From: Candidatus Yanofskybacteria bacterium RIFCSPHIGHO2_01_FULL_41_21
GTDB lineage: Bacteria > Patescibacteriota > Minisyncoccia > 2-02-FULL-40-12 > GWA2-44-9
Reading direction: 5' to 3'
Length of the DNA stretch: 44,341 nt
NCBI GenBank assembly: GCA_001794025.1
Contig: MGJA01000004.1
Span: 1-44,341 of the forward strand
Under the pieces are notes generated by a model. It worked only from the letters and a program-made list of their open reading frames with translations. It was not told where the DNA came from and did not search any database. How positions within the stretch are numbered: the first letter of the stretch is position 1; each line of letters begins with the position of its first letter. Shown here piece by piece: positions 1 to 42,768 of the stretch. A program made the translations under genes and the position numbers.

Positions 1-675
1 AGGCCTACCGGTGAAGGCGCGGCTAATCAATCAGTGCTCTACCCCCTTCATTACTCCATACCGCTGTCCCTAAAGACATTTCGGGGAGAACCAGCTATTA
101 CCAAGCTCGATAAGCTTTTCACTTCTAACCACAAGTCATCCGATGACATTGAGCGATCAAACGGTTCGGGCCTCCACTTGTCTTTCGACAAGCTTCACCC
201 TGCTCATGGTTAGCTCGCCTGGCTTCGGGTCTTACCTATACCGCATAAAGACATTTCACCCATCGGCCGTAAAGCCAATAGGTGAAAGTTCTTAAACGCG
301 CTATTAACACTCGGTTTCCCTGTCCATACGTCCCAGTGGAACTTATAGTGCGGTGTAAGTAAACTCGTCGGGTCATTCTTCAATAGGCACACCGTTACCC
401 GACGTCTTGCGACGGCAGGCTCCGGCTCTTTGTAGGCACACGGTTTCAGTTTCTATTTCACTCCCCTCGCCGGGGTTCTTTTCGCCTTTCCCTCACGGTA
501 CTGGTTCACTATCGATCACGAATAGTATTTAGCCTTATCCAGTAGTATGGACAAATTCACCCCGGACATTCTTATCCTGGGCTACTCAGGTAATAATACA
601 GAAGTTCGTTTGGTTTCGGATACGGGACTGTCACCCGCTATGGTCGGCTGTTCCAAGGCCGTTCTCCTACCGCAC

Positions 676-752
676 GAATTTTTAACTTCTTATGAAGTTT
701 TAACTTTGCACACGATGTGTTTTGCACAAAGTTAAAATTTCAAATGTACTAT
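676..752 (-). repeat. AT-rich hairpin expansion inside 23S rRNA
   Basis: TTTTAACTTTGTGCA...TGTGCAAAGTTAAAA inverted repeat between otherwise conserved 23S blocks. Confidence 0.7.
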
Positions 753-780
753 CCCTATTACCCCGCACACCCCGAACGCA

Positions 781-870
781 AGTTGTAAGTTTATAAAGTT
801 TGTAAAGTTATAAAGTTTTTTGAATTCTACTTTATGAACTTGATGAACTTTTTACTTTCAGCTTGTGTAC
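781..870 (-). repeat. Family I element copy 1: AT-rich micro-repeat hairpin inserted in 23S rRNA
   Basis: AGTAAAAAGTTCATCAAGTTCATAAAGT...ACTTTATAACTTTACAAACTTTATAAACTT; closely resembles intergenic 39908-39992. Confidence 0.75.
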
Positions 871-1289
871 GGAGTACACGGTTTAGGCTGTGCCGATTTC
901 GCTCGCCGCTACTCACGGTATCTAATTCTATTTATTTTCCTTTGGGTACTGAGATGTTTCACTTCCCCAAGTATGCTCCTCGCTTGCGCGAGATAATCAT
1001 GGTTCACATGATTGGGTTTCCCCATTCGGACATCTCCGGGTCATAGCCTGCTCGACGGCTCACCGAAGCTTTTCGCAGTCACGCAACGTCCTTCATCGCC
1101 TATTCGTGTCAAGGCATCCTCCGTGCGCCCTTTAATGTGGTCATTTGCTGACCTTTGAGTAATCGCTTGATTGATGTTTCCTTTGTCTTCCAAATTCTAA
1201 GGAAATAAAACTTGGAAGAACTAACTAACTTAATGTCTCCCTTTCGGGAGATCTGCCGTAGGCAGACAATTTTACTATCTAGATGTTTT

Positions 1290-5239: not shown

Positions 5240-5995
5240 CTATTGAACTAACATCGCGCTAACAGCGATACGATTGGCATCCGTTCCAATCGGCCAACAA
5301 GTGGCAACAATCAAGTCCCCCGACAAACCAGAGTCAATTAATTGCTGGGCACTACCCTTTTGGATGGCCCGGACCCGATAGGTATACTGAGTACCACCAA
5401 CCGTCACATAAATCAAGTCGTTGGCTTGGAGTTTACCAAGTAGTGAGAAGATCGAAGAATACGTCGTCCACGGTAAATCAGAAGAAGAGTGACCAACAAT
5501 TACAGACGTACCAGGTTGACCTGGATTTGTTGATCCAGGATAAAGCACGACACCATTCTTGAGCGCATTAAGAATTGTCTTATCAGTTGAATCATTAACC
5601 TGAATCACAGGCGCAGAAACATTAATTTTTGGAATTGAGATTATGGCATTTAATTGAGATTGGGAAGGATTGGTAACTATCGAAGCCGGTGAAGGACGAG
5701 GAATTGGGGTTGGGGTTGGGGTTGGAGCCACGGTCGCTGCTACAACAGCTGTAATCAATTCGGGATGTTTTTCATAACCATAAAGTTCCCTATACTGTTG
5801 AGTTAATTGTTCATTATCTGATTCTGTGGAATGAGTAAGCGGATAAGAAACGGCCTTAAAAAGAGTTGGAGCATTTAAAATTGTGAGAATAATCACAAAC
5901 GCAACCACAAAAATACCGACCAAGTACTTGATAGAAGTTGGCTTCGGTGGGGTTGGTGCTATTAAAGGTGGCAATAAATTTTGTTCGTTATTCAT
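5240..5995 (-). CDS. sortase family transpeptidase
   Basis: VIVGHSS and LIVATCWPIGTDANR motifs (His/Cys/Arg), N-terminal TM, Pro/Thr spacer. Confidence 0.92.
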   Translation of the reverse strand: MNNEQNLLPPLIAPTPPKPTSIKYLVGIFVVAFVIILTILNAPTLFKAVSYPLTHSTESDNEQLTQQYRELYGYEKHPELITAVVAATVAPTPTPTPIPRPSPASIVTNPSQSQLNAIISIPKINVSAPVIQVNDSTDKTILNALKNGVVLYPGSTNPGQPGTSVIVGHSSSDLPWTTYSSIFSLLGKLQANDLIYVTVGGTQYTYRVRAIQKGSAQQLIDSGLSGDLIVATCWPIGTDANRIAVSAMLVQ

Positions 5996-6107
5996 CCCGT
6001 TAGAAATGTAACAGACCGTCCACCGTCTTGAGGTGGTGGCTAGTTACAATCATTTTTATATTATTGATTTTCATATTTATACCCGGAGGGTTCATTTCTA
6101 ACGGGAT
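5994..6107 (-). repeat. Family A element copy 1
   Basis: ATCCCGTTAGAAATGAACCC...ATTTCTAACGGGATG; nested GCCACCACC..GGTGGACGG hairpin; abuts sortase ATG. Confidence 0.9.
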
Positions 6108-9940: not shown

Positions 9941-10412
9941 CAGTAATACTGCCACCGGCCTTAGTGATTTTTGTCTTGGCTGAATCCGAGAAAGAAAACC
10001 CTTTAAGAATAAGCTTCTTCTTGAGTATACCACCTCCAAGAATTTTAACAGTATCTTTTGTATTTCTAATAAACCCCTTGTCCATAAGCATTTGAGCTGT
10101 AACTTCTTGACCCTCAGAAAATTTATCAAAGACACCAAGATTAACCGCCACAGATTTATTGTGTTTCAACTGAAAGAAACGATGTTTACGGTGCGGGCTG
10201 TTATTACCAGGTTTCTTGGAAGCGCCCCGCTGTTTTGGAAACAATTGCCAAATACGATTATCGCCACCGCGAAAACCCGGCTTAACCCCAGCGCCAGCGC
10301 GGGACTTTTGTCCCTTAGTACCCTTGCCTGAAGTCGTACCGCGTTTACCACCACGGCCAACACGCTTGGCAAAAGTTCTGGCTGTTTTCGGTTTTAATTG
10401 ATGAATATTCAT
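9936..10412 (-). CDS. rplO: 50S ribosomal protein L15
   Basis: KRVGRGGKRGTTSGKGTKGQKSRAG. Confidence 0.97.
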   Translation of the reverse strand: MNIHQLKPKTARTFAKRVGRGGKRGTTSGKGTKGQKSRAGAGVKPGFRGGDNRIWQLFPKQRGASKKPGNNSPHRKHRFFQLKHNKSVAVNLGVFDKFSEGQEVTAQMLMDKGFIRNTKDTVKILGGGILKKKLILKGFSFSDSAKTKITKAGGSITD

Positions 10413-10523
10413 CCCGTTAGAAATGTAGCAAACCGTCCACCGTCTTAGGGTGGTGGCTGGCTACAATCATTTTTATATTATTGATTTTCATATATATACC
10501 CGTAGGGTTCATTTCTAACGGGA
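10411..10523 (-). repeat. Family A element copy 2
   Basis: Near-identical to copy 1; GTAGC/GCTAC replaces GTAAC/GTTAC (compensatory). Confidence 0.9.
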
Positions 10524-11192
10524 TTATTTTCGTTGAGCTAGGGGTCTAATCATTTTTAAGGCCTTAATTGTTGCTTGAGCAATATTAAGCTTGTTGTTGG
10601 TGCGTTCAACTAATTTACCGGTTAACCCAGTGATACCGGCGAGCTTGGCCACAACACGAACCGGACCACCGGCTTTAACACCCCCGCGACCGGGTTTCAA
10701 GATAACAACAGCTGAATTATATTTAGCTTCCACTTGATACGGAATCGTTCCACGCTTCAAGGGCACCATAAATAAGTATTTCTTGGCTTGGTTGACGGCC
10801 TTTTGTACGGACTGAGCAACATCTTTACCTTTAGCCATACCGACACCAACTCGGCCCTTACCATCACCGATAACAATAGTGGCACGGAAACTAAAACGTT
10901 TTCCACCCTTGGTTACACGTGAGACACGAGCAATTTCAAGAACCTTCTGGTCAAATTCGGACTTAGGCCGATCGCCACCACGACGCATACCACCTCGGCC
11001 GCCAAACTGACCACCGCCTCGGCCACCTCGGCCACCACCAAATCCACCCCGACCTCGCGGTGCTTGAGGAGCTACAGGATCTATAATTGGCGCAATCGGC
11101 ACTTCAACATCAGCAGGCACAGAATCCGGTATAACCTCAATGTTGTCGATTGGGGTAACCACTTCTAATTGTGGGTCAATTTCATTTTCCAT
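10524..11192 (-). CDS. rpsE: 30S ribosomal protein S5 with RGG-rich N-terminal extension
   Basis: RVSRVTKGGKRFSFRATIVIGDGKGRVGVGMAKGKDV; start set to MENEIDPQ. Confidence 0.96.
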   Translation of the reverse strand: MENEIDPQLEVVTPIDNIEVIPDSVPADVEVPIAPIIDPVAPQAPRGRGGFGGGRGGRGGGQFGGRGGMRRGGDRPKSEFDQKVLEIARVSRVTKGGKRFSFRATIVIGDGKGRVGVGMAKGKDVAQSVQKAVNQAKKYLFMVPLKRGTIPYQVEAKYNSAVVILKPGRGGVKAGGPVRVVAKLAGITGLTGKLVERTNNKLNIAQATIKALKMIRPLAQRK

Positions 11193-11196
11193 AATT

Positions 11197-11556
11197 CTAT
11201 AATTTAATTCCGGCTTCACGTAGACCTTCCGCCAAGGCCTTCACCCGACCGTGATATTTAAACCCGCCCCGATCAAATAATACTGTATCAATACCCTTTT
11301 CTTTTAACACTTTCGCAAGAGCTTGACCATTCAATGTCGCTTTCTCGGTTTTTGTCCCCTTGGCTACTTTAGATTTTTTACCGGCATAATCGGAAATAGA
11401 AATCATAGTAACTCCGGTCGTGTCATCAATAACTTGAGCATAGGTAAATTTGTTACTCTTAAAAATAGCAACGCGAGGTCGAGTAGCAGTGCCGGTTATT
11501 TTGGCCCTGACTCGATTATGACGACTTATTCTTTTTTGTGATTTTGTGGTTTTCAT
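11197..11556 (-). CDS. rplR: 50S ribosomal protein L18
   Basis: FKSNKFTYAQVIDD, FDRGGFKYHGRVKALAEGLREAGI. Confidence 0.96.
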   Translation of the reverse strand: MKTTKSQKRISRHNRVRAKITGTATRPRVAIFKSNKFTYAQVIDDTTGVTMISISDYAGKKSKVAKGTKTEKATLNGQALAKVLKEKGIDTVLFDRGGFKYHGRVKALAEGLREAGIKL

Positions 11557-11667
11557 CCCGTTAGAAATTTAGCAAACCGTCCACCGTCTTGAGGTGGTGG
11601 CTGGCTACAATCATTTTTATATCATTGATTTTCATATTTATACCCGTAGGGTTAATTTCTAACGGGA
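11555..11667 (-). repeat. Family A element copy 3
   Basis: Same outer stem CCCGTTAGAAATTAACCC...ATTTCTAACGGG, abuts rplR ATG. Confidence 0.9.
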
Positions 11668-12213
11668 TTATGCGGCTGTTGCGGCTTTCTTGCCGGCTTT
11701 ACGTTTAATAACTTCACCTTGATATCGAATACCACTTCCTTTATATGGCTCTGGTAATCGATGCATTCGGATACTGGCAGCAATCTTACCAATCAATTCT
11801 TTATCAATTCCTTGAATCTTAATGGAATTCTTATCAGTCACAAAAGTAATACCTTCGGCACCTTCAACTGTAATTGGATGAGAAAATCCAAGACCAAGTT
11901 CAAGATTATTGCCCTTAACAGCGGCCTTATACCCTATTCCTTGAAATTCAAGAACTGTCTCAAAGCCCGTTGCTGTTCCGGTGACCATATTCTGAATCAA
12001 GGCCCGACTTAAACCCCAAAAAACCTTGCCATCTTTAGACGCATCTGGAGCTAAACTGATTTTAATTTCATTCCCATCAACCGCCACAATTACATCTTTT
12101 GAAATTGTCTTTTGGAGAGTACCTTTGGGACCCTTTACGGAAACTGAATTACCGTCAATTTTGACATCGACGCCTTGAGGGATGGTAATTATTTTTTTTC
12201 CGATTTTAGACAT
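11668..12213 (-). CDS. rplF: 50S ribosomal protein L6
   Basis: MSKIGKKIITIPQGV, PEPYKGSGIRYQGEVIKRKAGK. Confidence 0.97.
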   Translation of the reverse strand: MSKIGKKIITIPQGVDVKIDGNSVSVKGPKGTLQKTISKDVIVAVDGNEIKISLAPDASKDGKVFWGLSRALIQNMVTGTATGFETVLEFQGIGYKAAVKGNNLELGLGFSHPITVEGAEGITFVTDKNSIKIQGIDKELIGKIAASIRMHRLPEPYKGSGIRYQGEVIKRKAGKKAATAA

Positions 12214-12354
12214 ATTTGCATTGTGAGGAAGTGTGCAAGCAGACGAACAATCTGCAAATTGTGCACCCCCCTCACTCGAAAACTCTATTCTTTAAAGTTT
12301 TCGAGTGAGGGGGTAAGTAATTGTTTCCAATCACTTACGCTCTTGGACACTTAC
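12214..12354 (-). repeat. Family B tripartite hairpin element copy 1 (empty)
   Basis: GTCCAAGAGCGTAAGTGATTGG; CCCCCTCACTCGAAAAC/GTTTTCGAGTGAGGGGG; ATTTGCA...TGCAAAT. Confidence 0.88.
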
Positions 12355-12768
12355 TTACCAAATTTCACAAATTAATTCTCCGCCGAGCTTTTGTTTTCTC
12401 GCGTCACGCGAATTCATTATCCCTTGCGAAGTTGAAACAATGGCTAAACCATAACCGGAACGGACCGGGCGAATATCTTCGGCCTTAATATACATTCGCC
12501 GTGATGGTTTGCTGATAATCTTTATATCCTGGATAGCCCCTTCGCCATCTTTATATTTTAAAGTCAACAGAAGAAATTCATGTTCAATCTTCTTTCCGCT
12601 GGAAACAGATTTTTTCTTGCGTTCCACCTCGGTTAAATAGCCATCATTTTTAAGAACATTGGCCATAGCAAATTTCATTTTAGAAAATGGAATCAAGACC
12701 TGGTCGTGAGAAACCTTTTGGGCATTCTTGATACGTATAAGAAAATCTGAAATAGGATCGTTTACCAT
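12355..12768 (-). CDS. rpsH: 30S ribosomal protein S8
   Basis: [44 protein letters not shown]. Confidence 0.97.
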
Positions 12769-13518: not shown

Positions 13519-13667
13519 GCGAATGTTGTCTATGAGGGACTACCGAAGGTATACCGAGTAGGTATAACATTCAGCACCCCCTCACTCGAAAACTCTATCC
13601 TTTAAAGTTTTCGAGTGAGGGGGTAAGCAACCATTACCAATCGCTTACGCTCTTGGATGTTTGCTTA
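13519..13667 (-). repeat. Family B element copy 2 (empty)
   Basis: ATCCAAGAGCGTAAGCGATTGG; CCCCCTCACTC/GAGTGAGGGGG; GAATGTT...AACATTC. Confidence 0.88.
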
Positions 13668-15297: not shown

Positions 15298-15477
15298 GAG
15301 ATGTTTGTCTATGAGCGAAGCGAGTAGTTACGAACTTCTCACCCCCTCACTCTTTTTTATATTACCTTTTAAACTCGCTGGTATATTATACTTTATTTAT
15401 TAATATTTGTCCATAATTATTTACTTGAGTGAGGGGGTAACTTTTTGTTACCAATCGCTTCGCTCTTGGACAAAAAC
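15298..15477 (-). repeat. Family B element copy 3 with a 75-nt AT-rich central loop
   Basis: GTCCAAGAGCGAAGCGATTGG; CCCCCTCACTC...GAGTGAGGGGG; CTACTCGCTTCGCTCATAG. Confidence 0.88.
15385..15413 (-). promoter_or_regulatory. sigma70-like promoter inside the central loop
   Basis: TGGACA-N17-TATAAT read on the minus strand. Confidence 0.6.
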
Positions 15478-16119
15478 TTATTTTTCTTCAAATTTTTCTC
15501 CTTTGTAAATCCAGACCTTTACTCCAATTGTACCAAAGGTTGTGTGAGCCGTTGCTTTGGCATAGTCAATATCAGCCCGAAGTGTTTGGAGAGGTAAGCT
15601 TCCCTCTTCCAAATGCTCGGCCCGAGCAATTTCGGCTCCGTCCAAACGACCGCCCATATAAATTTTGGCGCCTTTCACTTGTCGTGAAGACATTATTTTG
15701 ACCAATGTCTGTTTCATTAACCTTCTAAATGGAATACGTTTTTCAATCTGTTCAACCATTAGTTCCGCCATAACACGAGCTGATTCTTCCGGGTTTCTAA
15801 ATTCCAATACTTCTAAGCGAACTGCGACTTTCTTTTTTAAGCGTGTACTGATAGCTTTCTTTAGTTCTTCAATACCTGTTCCCCCACGACCAATCAACAA
15901 TCCCGGACGAGAAGTGGTGATAATGACATTCAAAACATCACTGCCTCGCTCAAGTCGAATATCAGCCACACCTAAACCCTTGAGTTTCTTCTCCAGAAAC
16001 GCGCGCACTACTAAATCATCCTTCAAATAAGGGATGTATTTTCGGCCGCCAAACCAAGTAGATGACCAATCCTTTTGGATACCAACACGTAATGAAATTG
16101 GGGAAATTTTTTGACCCAT
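15478..16119 (-). CDS. rpsC: 30S ribosomal protein S3
   Basis: MGQKISPISLRVGI, LLIGRGGTGIEELKKAI. Confidence 0.97.
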   Translation of the reverse strand: MGQKISPISLRVGIQKDWSSTWFGGRKYIPYLKDDLVVRAFLEKKLKGLGVADIRLERGSDVLNVIITTSRPGLLIGRGGTGIEELKKAISTRLKKKVAVRLEVLEFRNPEESARVMAELMVEQIEKRIPFRRLMKQTLVKIMSSRQVKGAKIYMGGRLDGAEIARAEHLEEGSLPLQTLRADIDYAKATAHTTFGTIGVKVWIYKGEKFEEK

Positions 16120-17207: not shown

Positions 17208-18041
17208 CTATTTACTTCTTCGCTTTACTACGAATTTATTTGATTTCTTTTTACTATCTCGGGTCTTTCGGCCTCCGGTAATCTTACCCTGAGCGGTCTT
17301 AGGTCGGCGAGTACCACGTCCTTGACGACCTTCACCTCCACCATATGGATGGTCAACCGGATTCATGGCCGTTCCTCTGACTTTCGGGCGGCGACCCAAC
17401 CAACGGGTTCTACCGGCCTTTCCTAAACTAATTGAATTGTGTTCAGCGTTTGAAAGCTGGCCAATTGAAGCAAAACACTCTTCGGAAATCAGTCGGGTTT
17501 CGGATGATGGCATCACAAGTTGGACATATCCGCCTTCACTAGCAAGGACACTAGCTGCCGAACCGGCTGAACGGACTAATGTTCCACCTTGGTTGGGATG
17601 TATTTCAATATTGTGAACTAAAGAACCTTGAGGAATATTCTTGAGTTTCATGCGGTTACCCGGTTTCAAAGAAGCACGTTCGGCTGTAATGATTGCGTCA
17701 CCGACTTTCAAATCCTGCGGGGCAAGTATATATCGTTTCTCGCCATCGGCAAAATGAATTCGGGCAATTCGACTGGTTCGATTTGGATCATATTCAATGG
17801 AAGCAACCACGCTTGGAATATCAACTTTGTTCTGTTTAAAATCAATATCTCGGAAGACACGCTTATGGCCACCACCCCGACCTTGGCGACCGGCAGAAAT
17901 ATGACCCTTGTTATCTCGGCCATATGATTTCTTGAAACCATGTTTCTTTGATTTCAATGGTGCAATATCGGTCAATCCAGAAAAATCATAACCCTGCATG
18001 GAACGACGTGATGGACTTGTTGGTTTATAATCTTTAGGCAT
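17208..18041 (-). CDS. rplB: 50S ribosomal protein L2
   Basis: YKPTSPSRRSM, GRDNKGHISAGRQGRGGGHKR, AMNPVDHPYGGGEGR. Confidence 0.98.
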   Translation of the reverse strand: MPKDYKPTSPSRRSMQGYDFSGLTDIAPLKSKKHGFKKSYGRDNKGHISAGRQGRGGGHKRVFRDIDFKQNKVDIPSVVASIEYDPNRTSRIARIHFADGEKRYILAPQDLKVGDAIITAERASLKPGNRMKLKNIPQGSLVHNIEIHPNQGGTLVRSAGSAASVLASEGGYVQLVMPSSETRLISEECFASIGQLSNAEHNSISLGKAGRTRWLGRRPKVRGTAMNPVDHPYGGGEGRQGRGTRRPKTAQGKITGGRKTRDSKKKSNKFVVKRRSK

Positions 18042-18146
18042 CCCGTTAGAAGTAATGCAATCCGTCCACCGTTTTGGAACGGTGGCTGGCTTGGTTTACA
18101 TTGTGGTTAATCATTTTGTTCATAGTATTGGTTACTTCTAACGGGA
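18040..18146 (-). repeat. Family A element copy 4 (divergent)
   Basis: ATCCCGTTAGAAGTAACC...GGTGGACGGATTGCATTACTTCTAACGGGATG. Confidence 0.88.
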
Positions 18147-18560
18147 TTATGCTTTTGCAAAATTAATGGAATCGCCTTCAGCTAAGGTCACGATTGCTTT
18201 TCTAAATCCTGACTTAGTGCCGACATGTCGGCCAACAGTTCGTTTCTTTGACGGCATATTAATCATATTCACAGACACCACGGTCACTTTGTACCGATTT
18301 TGAATAGCTTTCTTAACTTCCGGCTTATTGGCAAAACGAGTTACCTTGAACATGTATTGATTCATGCCCTCAAGACGAGTGGCTTTCTCACTAACATAAG
18401 GGTGCAGAATAGCTGAAACCGGTGCAATTACTAAATTAGAAATTTTCGGTGCAACTGATTCGGACTTGTCGGGTAGTGCAACTTCCGACTGTTTGAGAGT
18501 CGGCTGTTTTTTACCGGAAGTTCTACTACCTGATTTTTTAAAAAGATTTAATGCGCTCAT
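18147..18560 (-). CDS. rplW: 50S ribosomal protein L23
   Basis: LHPYVSEKATRLEGMNQYMFKVTRFANKPEVKKAIQNRYKVTVVSVN; start set to MSALNL. Confidence 0.95.
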   Translation of the reverse strand: MSALNLFKKSGSRTSGKKQPTLKQSEVALPDKSESVAPKISNLVIAPVSAILHPYVSEKATRLEGMNQYMFKVTRFANKPEVKKAIQNRYKVTVVSVNMINMPSKKRTVGRHVGTKSGFRKAIVTLAEGDSINFAKA

Positions 18561-22036: not shown

Positions 22037-22120
22037 TTGCGGAGCTTCCTAGCTTATTAGCTTGCTAGCTTATTAGGTGAATTGGTTTCCTAATAAGCTA
22101 ATCAGCTGAGAAGCTGGTTA
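22037..22120 (-). repeat. Family D element copy 2 (empty)
   Basis: CAGCTTCTCAGCTGATTAGCTTATTAGG...CTAATAAGCTAGCAAGCTAATAAGCTAGGAAGC. Confidence 0.8.
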
Positions 22121-25797: not shown

Positions 25798-25908
25798 GTT
25801 TATCTGCGAGCGAAGCGAGTAGTTATAAACTTGAGACCCCCTCACTCACTGCCGACCGAGTGAGGGGGTAAATTCTTGCTACCAATCGCTACGCTCTTGG
25901 GCAATCAC
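25798..25908 (-). repeat. Family B element copy 4 (empty)
   Basis: GCCCAAGAGCGTAGCGATTGG; CCCCCTCACTC/GAGTGAGGGGG; GTTTATAACTACTCGCTTCGCTCGCAGATAAAC-ATG. Confidence 0.9.
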
Positions 25909-26889: not shown

Positions 26890-27105
26890 GACGATTTTGT
26901 CAGTGAGGAAATGCGAGTATTCGAGCAGACGAACTGCTACAAAACTCGTCACCCTCACACCTATCGGGACCATGTGCCTATCAACAGTTGTTCAGAGCCG
27001 TAAGGCGGCTTCGCCTCGGTAACTTCTGAAATACTTTATTTTGACTCCGATAGGTGTGGGGGTTTGCTTCTGTTACCAATCGCTTCGCTCTTGGACATAA
27101 GCAAA
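26890..27105 (-). repeat. Family B element copy 5, enlarged central loop
   Basis: GTCCAAGAGCGAAGCGATTGG flanked by TTTGCTT/AAGCAAA; CCCACACCTATCGG/CCGATAGGTGTGAGGG; GACGAGTTTTGT/ACAAAATCGTC. Confidence 0.85.
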
Positions 27106-32112: not shown

Positions 32113-32421
32113 CCCAGTATATCAACTTCCAGCTCGAGACGCTTTTTTACGTCCACGTTGCAAGAGTCTTAACCCTAAAAATCTTCTACCTTGTGTTGTT
32201 TTTAAATAATGTTCACGGCGTCTCGCATCTTCCTCGTCTGTACAGCCTTCAAAGTATATTAATTTAAATGGACGTCTGAATTTTGTGGCCAAGCTTAAAC
32301 CCTTTTTATGTTCTTCTATTCGCCTAACTAGATTGCTAGTATACCCAATGTATAATTTATTGTCAGCACCACTTTCTAATACATAGACATAGAAGAACAT
32401 ACTGGAAGTTGTATTACTGGG
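32113..32421 (-). mobile_element. Family C element copy 5, occupied: inverted-repeat arms enclosing a GIY-YIG ORF
   Basis: CCCAGTAATACAACTTCCAG-ATG...TGA-TATACTGGG; ORF runs arm to arm; right end abuts comEC ATG. Confidence 0.8.
32122..32400 (-). CDS. GIY-YIG nuclease superfamily protein
   Basis: FFYVYVLESGADNKLYIGYTSNLVRRIEEHKKG; start MFFYVYVL abuts inverted-repeat arm. Confidence 0.92.
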   Translation of the reverse strand: MFFYVYVLESGADNKLYIGYTSNLVRRIEEHKKGLSLATKFRRPFKLIYFEGCTDEEDARRREHYLKTTQGRRFLGLRLLQRGRKKASRAGS

Positions 32422-32478
32422 CATTAAGTAAATGTAGCAAGAATCAATAACCTATACCAGTGTTATTTATTGAAATAG

Positions 32479-33016: not shown

Positions 33017-35869
33017 TTAGTTACAGACACCCGTCGTGGCAAAACAATTAGGACAACTATAGCAAGCCCCAGCCCTCACCATGAGCGTTCCACACTGGCA
33101 AATCGGGGCATCGGTTGAAGAACGGCTAACCATTCCAGGTTGATGGTGTTCCGCGGTTTTTATTTCTTCAACTATTTCTAATTCTGAAACTGGTTTGTTG
33201 GTAATAAGATCGGCAAGCAATGAGTCCGTTTTATCTTTTACATCCAAGATCCGTTCGGCAAAATCAGGCATCGTTTCAGCCACCTCGGGACCAAATAATT
33301 CTTCTTTGTCTTCCCGCGATAAATATTTCATTCCCAAATAACGAAAGACGTAATCAACAATGGACTTAGCGGTTGGAATATCAGGATTTTCCGTAAAGCC
33401 CGACGGATCAAAACGCATATCTTTGAATTTTCTCACTAAAACCTTAAGCGGAACACCGGATTGGAGGGCTACTGAAATTAAAGTCGCAATTGTGTCCAAT
33501 AAGCCAGAGAAGGTACTTCCCTCTTTGGCGACAGTGATAAACGTCTCCCCTGGTTTCATAGTGTCAGGATAAAAACCGACATTAAGATACCCCTCGTGGC
33601 CACCAACATTAAATTTATGCGTAAACGCGGGACGGTCATCAGGAAGTTTCCGACGAGTATAGCCATTAATCTTTTCAATGAACGGGTCTACCACCGCCGC
33701 CGACGTAGCTTCTTTATCTTCATCTTTCTTCATATTCAACGGTTGAATTGTTTTACAACCATCACGATAAAGAGCAATGGCCTTTAGCCCAAGCTTCCAA
33801 CCTTGCATAAATACATCTTTAACATCATCAACACTGGCCGTACTTGGTAAATTAATGGTCTTGGAAATAGCGCCGGAAATAAATGGCTGAACGGCCGCCA
33901 TCATTAATAGATGACCCATATAACTGATACTGCGTTCACCATTCGCCGCCTTAAAAGCACAATCAAATACCGCGAGATCTTTTTCTTTTATATGTGGAGC
34001 GCCTTCAATGGTATCGTGTTCGGTTATGTGAGCGATAATGGCTTCAACTTCCTGGTTTGAATAGTCCAGACGACGTAACGCTATTGAGACCTGATTATTA
34101 ACAAGTTTAAGAACGCCACCACCGACAAGCTTTTTATATTTCACTAAAGCGATGTCGGGCTCAACGCCGGTCGTCTGACAATCCATCAAAAAGGCAATGG
34201 TGCCGGTCGGAGCTAAAACACTAATTTGAGAATTACGAACACCATACTTTTCAGCCAGCTCTAAAGCGTCATGCCAAACCTGACGGGAAGCATTCTGAAG
34301 CGGTTCGTCATTCATGCCACCCAAAATTGATTCATTGTAAGTATGCTCCGCAGCATTGAGATGTTTCTTGAGGACACTAAGCATGGGTTCACGATTTTTA
34401 GCATAACCGGAAAATGGCCCTTTTGAATCCGCGATCAAAGCCGACATCCGATAGGCCTCACCGGACATGAGAGAAGTAATGTTAGCTGCAAAGTAACGAC
34501 CCATATCGGAATCGTACGGCATACCAAGAACCATAAGCAAAGAACCAAGGTTGGCATAACCAAGACCAAGCTCACGATAGGCCTCCGCATTATCGGTAAT
34601 TTCTGGAGTTGGATAAGAAGATGGTGTAACCAGAATCTCTTGAGCCAAAATCATCACATCTACAACTTTCTTAAACAAATCAACGTCAAATTTAGCGCCT
34701 TCTTTCAAAAATTTCATTAAATTCAAAGAAGCCAAATTACAAGCGCTATTATCAAGATGCATATATTCCGAACATGGATTGGATGCATTGATGCGACCGG
34801 TATTAGAAACGGTGTTCCAACTATTAATCGTAGTATCGTACTGCATCCCTGGATCAGCTGAAGACCAAGCAGCATCGGCAATCCAATTCATGATTTCACG
34901 CGCCTTGACGGTTTGTATTACTTTTCCATCAACACGAGCAGTAAGATTCCAATCAACATCTGCCTCAACTGCTTCCATAAACTCATCTGTTACACGCACA
35001 GAATTATTTGCGTTTTGGAATGGTACCATCGTATATGGATCAAAAAGATCTCCAGTTAAGGAATTTTTGACACCACCTAGAGTCAGGATTTTAACCATAT
35101 CTTCAGCAATCTGCTTACAATTAATAAAATCCTTAATATCTGGATGACTAACATCTAGGACAACCATCTTGGCAGCACGCCTCGTCTTACCACCGGAACG
35201 AATAGAATTTGCAACAGCATCAGCTAATTTCATAAATGAAACTGGTCCTGATGAAGTGCCTCCTTTTGATAATGACTCCATTGAACCACGAAGCTTTGAA
35301 AGGCTGGCCCCAGAACCTGAACCACCCTGAAAAATTTTACCTTCATCATGACCCCACTTTAGAATTGAATCCATATTATCTTCCACGGCAAGAATAAAAC
35401 AAGCCGAACATTGAGGATGTTCGGTCGTCCCAACATTAAACCAGACGGGACTGTTGAAAGCAGCGTATTGATTAATGAGAATCCAGGTTAAGTCCTGAGC
35501 AAAATTATCGGCATCTGCCGACGACGCAAAATAATTACCATCTAATCCCCAACGACGAATTTCGGTTACGACTCGGTCTACCATCTGTCGGGCGCTGGTC
35601 TCGCGAACTGGCGTCCCTAATTTGCCTCGGAAATATTTTGAAGCCACAATATCGGTGGCGGTCTGAGTCCAAAAATTTGGTACCTCAACATCCTTCTGCT
35701 CAAACACGATTGTGCCGTCGCCACGTTCAATTTTAGCAGTTCTTTTTTCCCAAACGATGCTGTCGTAAGGATGCATCTCGCCAAAAAGACGCTTCCAATG
35801 AAAAGCACCTCGGTGGGAATTATTTTCTGGTTCCACAGGGAGGTGCGGTTGAGTTTGGGTGGTATTCAT
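33017..35869 (-). CDS. nrdJ: vitamin B12-dependent (class II) ribonucleotide reductase
   Basis: RGKLGTPVRETS, SGSGASLSKLRGSMESLSKGG, NPCSEYMHLDNSACNLASLNL, APTGTIAFLMDCQTTGVEPD, CQCGTLMVRAGACYSCPNCFATTGVC. Confidence 0.97.
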   Translation of the reverse strand: MNTTQTQPHLPVEPENNSHRGAFHWKRLFGEMHPYDSIVWEKRTAKIERGDGTIVFEQKDVEVPNFWTQTATDIVASKYFRGKLGTPVRETSARQMVDRVVTEIRRWGLDGNYFASSADADNFAQDLTWILINQYAAFNSPVWFNVGTTEHPQCSACFILAVEDNMDSILKWGHDEGKIFQGGSGSGASLSKLRGSMESLSKGGTSSGPVSFMKLADAVANSIRSGGKTRRAAKMVVLDVSHPDIKDFINCKQIAEDMVKILTLGGVKNSLTGDLFDPYTMVPFQNANNSVRVTDEFMEAVEADVDWNLTARVDGKVIQTVKAREIMNWIADAAWSSADPGMQYDTTINSWNTVSNTGRINASNPCSEYMHLDNSACNLASLNLMKFLKEGAKFDVDLFKKVVDVMILAQEILVTPSSYPTPEITDNAEAYRELGLGYANLGSLLMVLGMPYDSDMGRYFAANITSLMSGEAYRMSALIADSKGPFSGYAKNREPMLSVLKKHLNAAEHTYNESILGGMNDEPLQNASRQVWHDALELAEKYGVRNSQISVLAPTGTIAFLMDCQTTGVEPDIALVKYKKLVGGGVLKLVNNQVSIALRRLDYSNQEVEAIIAHITEHDTIEGAPHIKEKDLAVFDCAFKAANGERSISYMGHLLMMAAVQPFISGAISKTINLPSTASVDDVKDVFMQGWKLGLKAIALYRDGCKTIQPLNMKKDEDKEATSAAVVDPFIEKINGYTRRKLPDDRPAFTHKFNVGGHEGYLNVGFYPDTMKPGETFITVAKEGSTFSGLLDTIATLISVALQSGVPLKVLVRKFKDMRFDPSGFTENPDIPTAKSIVDYVFRYLGMKYLSREDKEELFGPEVAETMPDFAERILDVKDKTDSLLADLITNKPVSELEIVEEIKTAEHHQPGMVSRSSTDAPICQCGTLMVRAGACYSCPNCFATTGVCN

Positions 35870-35980
35870 CCCGTTAGAAATTTTACCAACCGTCCACCGT
35901 TTTGTAATGGTGGCTATGGTTAGTAAATTTAATTGATAATTTATCGCGCTATTCCCGTAGGGTTAATTTCTAACGGGATT
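35868..35980 (-). repeat. Family A element copy 5
   Basis: ATCCCGTTAGAAATTAACCC...TTTACTAACC...GGTTGGTAAA...TTTCTAACGGGATG. Confidence 0.9.
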
Positions 35981-36031: not shown

Positions 36032-36146
36032 AGTGTTTTTTCAGCGAGCAAAACGAGGTGATAAAAACAGTAACCCGCCTAAATTTTTAGAAATAAAACT
36101 TAGGCGGGTAAGTTCCTACAACCAATCGCTACGCTCTTGGACGGCT
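36032..36146 (-). repeat. Family B element copy 6 (empty)
   Basis: GTCCAAGAGCGTAGCGATTGG; ACCCGCCTAAGTTTTA...TTTAGGCGGGT; GTTTTTATC...CTGAAAAAAC. Confidence 0.8.
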
Positions 36147-37323
36147 ACTTATTAATTTTTCTTCTGATGAAAGCCGGAATAGTGTCAAACTCGGAATCGT
36201 TCAGTGAGTCATCAACGAATTCTTTAATTGGTGGAGTAGAAGTTGATGGTGTGTATGATGGATTAATGGTTGATGAAGGATTCTTTTTAATCGTATCAAA
36301 TAAATTCTGTCCCATATCGGCCGGTGCGCCGAAACCGGAGACCGTTGGTCTGATTGGGGCCGGATTGTCACTATTGAATCCGGTAGCAATGACAGTAATT
36401 TCAATTTCTCCTTTCTTGAGTTTATCGTCAATAACGGCCCCAAAGATAACTCGGGCTTCCGGATCAACATGTTCGGTAATAATACGAGCGGCTTCATTAA
36501 TTTCCGCCATGGCCATATCCGGACCGCCCGAGACATTAAAGAGAACACCCTTAGCACCATCAATAGAGACCTCTAACAACGGGGAGTTAATAGCCATCTT
36601 GGCGGCCTCAACAGCGCGATCATCGCCACTGGCTCGGCCGATACCCATTAGAGCTGACCCCGAATTGGACATTACTGCTTTTACGTCGGCAAAATCAAGA
36701 TTGACGATACCGGGGATGGTAATGAGATCGGAAATACCCTGAACGCCTTGGCGCAAAACATCATCAACGATTCCAAATGATTCAAGTAATGGTGTCTTGC
36801 GATCAATTATGGAAAGGATGCGATCATTAGGAATTGTAATCAATGAGTCAACCCGTTCTCTAAGATTATTCCAAGCGGCATCGGCAATCTTCATCCGAGC
36901 CAGACCTTCAAAACTAAACGGCTTCGTAACAACACCGACAGCCAACGCACCGGCTTCACGAGCCAGTTCAGCGATAACAGGCGCCGCACCGGAACCGGTA
37001 CCACCCCCCAAACCGGTTGTAATAAAAACCATGTCGGCCCCTTTCAATGCAGCGCTGATTTCTTCTTTAGTATCGTGGGCTGCTTGGCGACCAATCTCCG
37101 GATTCATGCCGGCACCAAGACCACGAGTCAAACTTTTACCAATGTGGATTTTAACTGATGCTCCAGACGCATGTAGGGCTTGAGCATCGGTATTTATTGC
37201 AATGAACTCAACCCCGTGAATACGGGCCTCAATCATTCGGGTTAGAGCATTCGTTCCACCACCACCAACGCCAACAACTTTGATGCGAGCGAATGTTTCA
37301 AATGCTGGTTTAACTTGGGCCAT
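36145..37323 (-). CDS. ftsZ: cell division protein FtsZ
   Basis: [35 protein letters not shown]. Confidence 0.98.
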
Positions 37324-37496: not shown

Positions 37497-37613
37497 GTAG
37501 TTGTCTGTGCGCAGTATAACGAGCACAGGGACAACTACTTATCCCCTCACTCTATCAGCAGAGTGAGGGGATTCTCATGATTTCAACTACTCGCAATCTC
37601 GTAGGAAATCATG
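37488..37613 (-). repeat. Family B-like element copy 7 (empty)
   Basis: CATGATTTC...GAAATCATG; CCCCTCACTCTGCTGATAGAGTGAGGGG; GATAAGTAGTTGT...ACAACTACTTATC. Confidence 0.85.
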
Positions 37614-39992: not shown

Positions 39993-40265
39993 TTACAGGT
40001 CTATTTCTTGTTTGAGTTTACGTTTAGCCTCATCAAAAACATCTTTGTCGTAAGTACCAAGCTTTTCCAGTTTACGTCGAAGGCCGGCTAAGTGAATGCC
40101 CATGATGGCGGCGTTCTTTTCTCGGCGTTCGGTTTGTTTTTTAATTCTGAATTTAGATTTTTTTGCTTTCAACAAAACACCGCTCTGCTGAACAAAGCGA
40201 TTAAATCGGCGCATCAAACTGCCGATGGATTCATTTGGTTTTCTTTTTACTTCTACCATATTCAA
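39993..40265 (-). CDS. rpsU: 30S ribosomal protein S21 (long form)
   Basis: VKRKPNESIGSLMRRFNRFVQQSGVLLKAKK; SD AAGGAGG. Confidence 0.92.
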   Translation of the reverse strand: MNMVEVKRKPNESIGSLMRRFNRFVQQSGVLLKAKKSKFRIKKQTERREKNAAIMGIHLAGLRRKLEKLGTYDKDVFDEAKRKLKQEIDL

Positions 40266-40271
40266 CCTCCT

Positions 40272-40643
40272 TTTCGAATTTTACCTGCGAGTGAAACGAG
40301 TAGATGTAAAATTCAGAACCCCCTCACTCAACAGCAATAATTACATAATACTACATTTTAACCTTCGTTTCAAGCTGATGAAGGCCTTGGCTCGACGTTT
40401 AATTTGACGTTCTCTATCTCTCGCATCATTCTCTGATTTATACGCCTCATAATATACCAGTTCCAAAGGCCTTCTATCAGCAGTTGAAACTACGTGTCCT
40501 TTGTTGTGCTCCATAAATCTTTTCTTCAAATCACTCGAGTATCCAAAATATAAATTATTATCTTTCTTAGAACGTAAAACGTAGAAATAATGCATGAGTG
40601 AGGGGGTCAAGTATAGCAACCAATCGCTTTGCTCTTGGGCTCT
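40272..40643 (-). mobile_element. Family B element copy 8, occupied: GIY-YIG ORF in the central loop
   Basis: GCCCAAGAGCAAAGCGATTGG; CCCCCTCACTC-ATG...ORF...GAGTGAGGGGG; GAATTTTAC...GTAAAATTC. Confidence 0.82.
40341..40595 (-). CDS. GIY-YIG nuclease superfamily protein
   Basis: MHYFYVLRSKKDNNLYFGYSSDLKKRFMEHNKG; homologous to 32122-32400. Confidence 0.92.
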   Translation of the reverse strand: MHYFYVLRSKKDNNLYFGYSSDLKKRFMEHNKGHVVSTADRRPLELVYYEAYKSENDARDRERQIKRRAKAFISLKRRLKCSIM

Positions 40644-40971
40644 ACTTGAGATTTTTGCCTCCGAGGAGATGGATGTGGAGATGAGGAACAAGCTTCCCGC
40701 CATGTTCACCCTCATTTACAACCAAACGATACCCTTTATCAAGATTCTGCTTTTTCGCCATATCGTGAGCGACCCGAAACAATTTGCCCAATAGAGCTTC
40801 ATCATGTTCAGCGACATCATCAAGACCTGTAAAATGTTTGACGGGAATAATTAAAAAATGAACCGGTGCTTGAGGCGCGATATCCTTAATAACCCAAACA
40901 TGATCATCTTGATAAACCACTTCCGCCGGTATTTCACCATTAATAATTTTACAAAAAATATCTGTAATCAT
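40642..40971 (-). CDS. HIT family protein (HinT-like)
   Basis: IFCKIINGEIPAEVVYQDD, HGGKLVPHLHIHLLGG. Confidence 0.96.
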   Translation of the reverse strand: MITDIFCKIINGEIPAEVVYQDDHVWVIKDIAPQAPVHFLIIPVKHFTGLDDVAEHDEALLGKLFRVAHDMAKKQNLDKGYRLVVNEGEHGGKLVPHLHIHLLGGKNLK

Positions 40972-42354: not shown

Positions 42355-42768
42355 TAGCTTATTAGCTGGTTAGCTTATTAATCATACTGTTTAACATTTT
42401 CATTACTTCCAACAACTTCGAGTCGACTACACTATAGTTCAAATGTAGTGCTTTATGCAACCTCTTAGATATTTCGACCTGAGTTTCAAGCTCAGCCCCA
42501 GAACCATAAGAATTAAGTAAAAAATGTTTATATTCTTTTATATGCCCGCGCATTCTTCCTTCAGCAATATTAGAAACTATTGAAACCGCCGCACGTCTCA
42601 TTTGAGAAGTAAGCCCATACATTTCTTCTTTTGGAAATTTGTCGGTTAGGATATAAATCTCCGTTACTAAATCCATTCCTTTTTGCCAAACGATTAATTC
42701 TCTATACCCGTGGATAATTGCCATTTGAAATAAGCTAGGGAGCTAATCAGCTAGTAAGCTACTCTTGG
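42352..42768 (-). mobile_element. Family D element copy 3, occupied: micro-repeat arms enclosing a four-helix-bundle ORF
   Basis: GTAGCTTACTAGCTGATTAGCTCCCTAGCTTATT...ORF...TAATAAGCTAACCAGCTAATAAGCTAATG. Confidence 0.82.
42362..42724 (-). CDS. four helix bundle protein, 23S rRNA intervening-sequence (IVS) protein family
   Basis: YRELIVWQKGMDLVTEIYILTDKFPKEEMYGLTSQMRRAAVSIVSNIAEG. Confidence 0.95.
   Translation of the reverse strand: MAIIHGYRELIVWQKGMDLVTEIYILTDKFPKEEMYGLTSQMRRAAVSIVSNIAEGRMRGHIKEYKHFLLNSYGSGAELETQVEISKRLHKALHLNYSVVDSKLLEVMKMLNSMINKLTS

Follow-up and report, generated by a model that had tools for sequence, protein, structure and literature searches.

A GIY-YIG nuclease gene in the hairpin loop of a putatively mobile palindromic element of Candidatus Yanofskybacteria

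The window, that is, the whole 44,341-nucleotide stretch of DNA analysed here, carries at positions 40275..40650 a composite palindromic element of the family termed B, which is located between the stop codon of a gene for a HIT-domain protein (40642..40971; PF01230, E=1.2e-25) and the AAGGAGG of rpsU, the gene for ribosomal protein S21 (39993..40259; PF01165, E=1.8e-6). All of these features are on the minus strand, where the order is HIT gene, P1 hairpin, P2 left arm, open reading frame (ORF), P2 right arm, P3 hairpin, AAGGAGG, and rpsU. P1 (AAGTAGAGC-CCAA-GA-GC-AAA-GC-GA-TTGG-TTGCTATACTT) occupies 40609..40647 with its motif GCCCAAGAGCAAAGCGATTGG at 40620-40640, and its left stem includes the TAG stop codon of the HIT gene. 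P2 is formed by the pairing of ACCCCCTCACTC with GAGTGAGGGGGT, and its loop is filled exactly by an ORF of 84 aa (MHYFYVLRSKKDNNLYFGYSSDLKKRF...; 40341..40595, stop codon at 40341-40343). The left arm of P2, ACCCCCTCACTCA, spans 40595..40607 and overlaps the A of the ORF's ATG; within it are ACCCCCTCACTC (40596-40607) and CCCCCTCACTC (40596-40606), the latter adjoining ATGCATTATTTC. The ORF ends 11 nt before GAGTGAGGGGG (40319-40329), the inner stretch of the right arm TGAGTGAGGGGGT (40318..40330). P3 (GAATTTTAC...GTAAAATTC) covers 40275..40316, with its motif stretch at 40276-40314. The sequence-only reading of this locus, according to which the P2 stem runs directly into the ORF, the ORF stops shortly before the opposite arm, and P1 and P3 flank the ORF-bearing hairpin, was borne out in these respects. 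A group I intron carrying a GIY-YIG ORF was ruled out by the intergenic position and by the lack of any intron family at the Rfam threshold, and a simple terminator hairpin was also considered and rejected.

The core of P1 follows the pattern CCAA-GA-GC-NNA-GC-GA-TTGG, with a GA/GA internal loop and a closing GC-NNA-GC cap. The sequence GCGAAGC forms an unusually stable DNA mini-hairpin. Folded as DNA, P1 reaches -6.6 kcal/mol (z -3.35). On the opposite strand, P3 adopts the same fold as P1 (CTGC-GA-GT-GAA-AC-GA-GTAG) and is an inverted copy of it; family B is therefore an inverted P1-type pair placed around P2. The P1 stem covaries. Nineteen copies were aligned, from the host genome, two same-genus genomes, and locus L169, those of the relatives being picked with a wide pattern that yields true copies amid many chance matches; two-sided changes are seen in 13 of 17 pairs, and 90.6% of the cells are paired. 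The covariation score is 0.42; shuffles give 0.19, and sliding the hairpin gives no more than 0.16. Within the window, five matches to P1 with up to 3 mismatches are found against an expectation of 0.00, and CCCCCTCACTC with up to 2 mismatches is found 17 times (expected 6.2); five hairpins carry it without mismatch in each of their two arms. P1 can also occur as a solitary hairpin (C11:6485).

The 84-aa ORF matches the Pfam GIY-YIG model PF01541 (E=3.9e-16; 59.5 bits against a cut-off of 22.6), one of nine GIY-YIG matches in the host genome. Residues of active-site type (Y5, Y16, G18, R26, H30, and E62) are invariant across 14 homologues, and the conserved Tyr/Tyr/Arg/Glu set of the active site is represented among them by Y5, Y16, R26, and E62. 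Among solved structures, the best sequence matches are the small UPF0213/YhbQ-like GIY-YIG proteins 1zg2 and 1ywl (E=1e-15). The ORF is matched by GIY-YIG models and by no HUH/Y1 (RAYT) model; PADLOC and NCBIfam searches gave no match, and PHROGs returned one weak endonuclease match. In nine homologue pairs dN/dS ranges from 0.03 to 0.23, and the ORFs are therefore selected as proteins.

The host genome (704 kb in 15 contigs) contains 13 family B copies, so that the family is conserved beyond the window, as the earlier reading had presupposed. That reading also counted seven other copies in the window, none with an ORF in P2. The absence of ORFs holds for all seven, whereas the family assignment holds for six, which share P1 (CCAA boxes at 12346, 13656, 15469, 25900, 27094, and 36140); the seventh, at 37541..37572 (ATCCCCTCACTCT), is a P2-type hairpin that shares the P2 stem only and lacks the P1 motif. 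The six, all on the minus strand like the seventh, are located at 12210..12365 (approximate ends), 13519..13667, 15298..15480 (with promoter-like sequence in the P2 loop), 25798..25908 (upstream of a gene reading as fusA), 26910..27105 (P2 CCCCCACACCTATCGG), and 36050..36150 (P2 CCCGCCTAAG). Where the copy at 15298-15480 has its P2 loop, relatives have a promoter-like sequence in a plain spacer. The P2 stems vary among copies (CCCCCTCACTC, CCCCCACACCTATCGG, and CCCGCCTAAGTTT), and in most copies the stop codon of the upstream gene ends 8 nt before CCAA. The proposed search for further copies with an ORF in P2 yielded two, namely C8:5605 in the host genome and, independently, L169 in another genus (G006, Candidatus Yanofskybacteria), where the P1 pairs are compensated, the P2 arm is CCCCCTCACTCGAAAT, and the contig is the same as that of L212. 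The P1 motif is present in 13 of 28 family-level genomes, with one match overall in the reversed control.

Family B belongs to a wider class of elements in which a GIY-YIG gene fills a hairpin loop. A second one is present in the window at 32113..32424 (minus strand), with arms CCCAGTAATACAACTTCCAG and the flanks ATG and ATGC. In the genus, loop-type GIY-YIG domains lie mostly in inverted repeats of 14-22 bp about 250 nt apart, the arms of which differ by protein lineage. Across the 28 family-level genomes, 37 of 76 GIY-YIG domains are enclosed by inverted repeats scoring at least 12, against 1% in a control that paired left and right flanks of different loci. Within the same taxonomic family, such repeats surround 36 of 58 close homologues (80 bits or more) versus 1 of 18 distant ones (below 80 bits); close homologues devoid of an inverted repeat also occur (e.g., L006, L174, and L194). 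A collection-wide scan of contigs, queried with a narrow alignment of homologues, found an inverted repeat around 57 of 84 domains (control 3%). Its 80 loci are mostly from Patescibacteria, and it includes records labelled Psychroflexus, Verrucomicrobiaceae, Omnitrophota, Cloacimonadota, and others. A scan of viral sequences gave one weak relative only, and carriage by phages is therefore not supported.

The comparison of arm families with loop proteins, which had been suggested earlier, revealed co-diversification: over 87 elements, arm similarity correlates with protein identity (Mantel r 0.49; permutation maximum 0.14). It had been claimed that homologous ORFs occupy two unrelated hairpin families. 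Homologous ORFs do occur in different arm families, of which there are at least eight in the genus and family, but the description of these as unrelated is not supported. The arm families are best regarded as lineages of a single kind of element that have diverged from one another, and not as unrelated hairpins of which each captured an ORF: arm and protein co-vary, and a CCC-type outer end is common to most arms.

Several lines of evidence concern mobility. Of 29 comparable loci, 26 have an empty counterpart in one or more genomes of the genus. The junction that carries the ORF copy is a plain spacer of less than 80 nt without the composite in the same-genus genome G003. The composite at C4:15469 is missing from G002 and G003, and in G001 the same P1 and P3 enclose a P2 stem of another sequence. 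At C9:20964, where the gene pair reads as rpmJ/rpsM, a copy with another P2 stem is present in G003 and none in G002. A 290-bp ORF-bearing element at C7:50400 (TTAGTGTTGA(CACTCACACC...)...AGTGTTGATATC) faces a clean empty site in G003, which reads TTAGTGTTGATATC, and in G002. Most empty sites are not letter-perfect, because the genomes of the genus are only about 45-98% identical in the flanking proteins used for the comparison. Target duplications of at least 5 nt flank 37.5% of ORF-bearing repeats in a first set (control 5%, shuffle maximum 18%) and 35% in the collection-wide set (control 2%, shuffle maximum 7%), the two sets having a few loci in common. At the copy described here, at L169, and at L003 a target duplication was sought and none was found; for this reason the ends of family B are approximate, and the mobility of the present copy therefore rests on presence/absence and on class membership.

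As read from the flanks, the insertion sites include start codons, TTGAC -35 boxes, and the 5′ ends of genes for tRNA, tmRNA, and RNase P. Several ORF-bearing elements that abut the 5′ end of a tRNA (L170/L223, L216, L225, L229, L232, and L271) display 7-10 nt duplications of the tRNA start, and L192, L217, L265, L280, and L196 are insertions at the 5′ ends of apparent RNase P RNA and tmRNA genes. Of 45 family A copies, 42 terminate precisely at an ATG, and an exact 5-nt duplication (e.g., ATGAA) is found in 15 of 42 (shuffled mean 7.2, maximum 13), many copies being without a full duplication. The hairpins of this family (TCCCGTTAGA...TCTAACGGGA) fit exactly between stop codons and ATG start codons; in the window they are found at 5994-6107, 10411-10524, 11555-11668, 18040-18147, and 35868-35979. 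The host genome has about 36 copies, and the sole ORF-bearing one, C10:51118, has an in-frame TAG.

Other repeats were also observed. Degenerate repeats of the TAGCTTATTAGG / CTAGGAATC type occupy intergenic spacers at 22051-22115 and 42355-42753 of the window and in G003. A further palindrome family, GTCACTTGGGGTATACTCTTA...CTGGG, has at least seven copies in G000 (C8:46634, C11:33407, C12:51426, C12:68252, C12:97184, C13:42852, and C13:59128), and no copy with a GIY-YIG gene was seen. G030, the Cloacimonadota genome of L291, has 54 palindromes CCCCGTTAGAT...ATCTAACGGGG with a similar arm and loops of up to 60 nt. At the edge of the window, positions 1-1144 (minus strand) belong to a large-subunit rRNA gene (Rfam) cut by the contig end.

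The ORF copy is probably the autonomous, nuclease-coding form of a mobile palindromic element, family B, that has many ORF-less relatives. Such an element would consist of the inverted P1-type pair enclosing an inner hairpin whose loop carries one GIY-YIG gene of about 85 aa, and the gene-less copies would be non-autonomous derivatives that have kept their ends and are mobilised in trans. Every arm family is accompanied by a diverged nuclease of its own, so that each enzyme most likely recognises the arms of the hairpin that encodes it; the co-diversification of arms and proteins is also what suggests that the GIY-YIG protein moves the element. Recognition would probably involve single-stranded folded DNA; this mode of action is proposed from the hairpin design and by analogy with RAYT and Ssn. 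Cuts made at element and target would most likely leave staggered ends, giving rise to duplications of 4-10 nt, and copies would persist at sites whose function is regained through the duplication, such as start codons, -35 boxes, and the 5′ ends of genes for tRNA, tmRNA, and RNase P. The order of these steps is inferred, and family B is presumed to obey the rule of the other families.

A different relation between nuclease and repeat can be envisaged, in which the gene, as in the Ssn/NTS pairing discussed below, is embedded in one of the sites that its product cleaves and has a role in modulating recombination or the uptake of DNA; recombination would then spread the repeats, and the enzyme would be a nuclease rather than a transposase. 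The location of the gene within the repeat, the many ORF-less copies, and the co-diversification of arm and protein fit this explanation equally well, but target duplications and clean empty sites point to the insertion of defined units, and it is considered unlikely.

That the composite is a structured regulatory RNA of ribosomal-protein operons, with the GIY-YIG ORF as an incidental insertion in an intercistronic loop, is suggested by family B copies that span stop-to-start junctions of such operons on the coding strand and have covarying stems. However, orthologous operon junctions in the same genus lack the element, the same pattern recurs at tRNA genes and with other arm families, a purine-loop hairpin is present on each DNA strand, as expected of an inverted DNA repeat, and there is no Rfam match at the element. 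This makes a regulatory RNA very improbable. Allelic homing, by which an endonuclease gene would enter existing hairpins at fixed sites, is in keeping with the GIY-YIG domain itself and with its weak similarity to the intron endonuclease 1mk0. It is extremely improbable, however, given that copies flanked by target duplications are found at numerous loci with no relation to each other, that arms and ORF move together as units of about 290 bp, and that the window has no intron match (Rfam). The assemblies are draft metagenome assemblies, but chance or an assembly artefact can be practically dismissed, as the same architecture recurs in many genomes and phyla and the proteins are conserved under purifying selection.

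Returning to the mobile-element explanation, it is tentatively suggested, with somewhat less than even confidence, that family B belongs to a class of autonomous transposable elements, about 290 bp long, that is widespread and has so far gone undescribed. Their sole protein would be the ~85-aa GIY-YIG nuclease encoded in their own hairpin loop, many arm specificities would have co-evolved with the nucleases, the duplications of 4-10 nt would spare gene starts, and the ends of family B would be REP-like hairpins. No GIY-YIG hairpin element was found described in a literature search that lay mostly outside subscription papers, which is weak evidence of novelty, and the chance that the mobile class is itself new is considerable. 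Should the nuclease be sufficient to move the hairpin, the elements would rank with the smallest self-contained mobile elements known, and GIY-YIG nucleases would be added to the enzymes behind DNA transposition. They would also account for much of the repeat content between the genes of Patescibacteria, and dozens of natural nuclease/target pairs would become available for studies of specificity. The precise placement of insertions at start codons, at promoters, and at the 5′ ends of RNAs shows a way of spreading in genomes with almost no spare DNA.

Of the known systems, REP/RAYT and Ssn/NTS come closest. REP sequences and REPINs are short intergenic palindromes, often in inverted pairs, with one coding copy and many non-coding ones and a presumed recognition of single-strand hairpins (PMC3116915, PMC2817692, PMC8266576). 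Family B resembles REP/REPIN with RAYT (TnpA-REP) in its intergenic palindromes, in a coding copy with cognate palindromes, and in its many non-coding copies, and also contains the inverted pair of REP-like hairpins typical of a REPIN, as P1 and P3 take the same fold on opposite strands. RAYT belongs to the HUH tyrosine transposases, whereas here a GIY-YIG nuclease in the hairpin loop is the only protein, and because of this protein the element is not a REP/RAYT system. A further difference from REP/RAYT is that the GIY-YIG elements insert at the 5′ ends of genes with target duplications of 4-10 nt.

The Ssn family of Neisseria reportedly consists of GIY-YIG proteins that cut a repeated single-stranded DNA sequence (NTS). 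The likeness is clear, a GIY-YIG protein with a cognate repeated palindrome being found here too, and it may be that Ssn already accounts for the association of GIY-YIG proteins with repeats; insertion with target duplication and mobile units of about 290 bp distinguish the present elements from Ssn/NTS. The UPF0213/YhbQ-like proteins differ in their setting: the distant, YhbQ-like homologues of these genomes are almost never enclosed by inverted repeats (1 of 18). MITEs and the palindromes derived from IS200-IS605 share with family B the existence of non-autonomous palindromic copies; unlike them, the element encodes no DDE or Y1 transposase. IS200/IS605 elements are not known to give target duplications. 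With DNA transposable elements in general, the class has in common target-site duplications, although not at the copy described here, and differences in presence and absence between related genomes.
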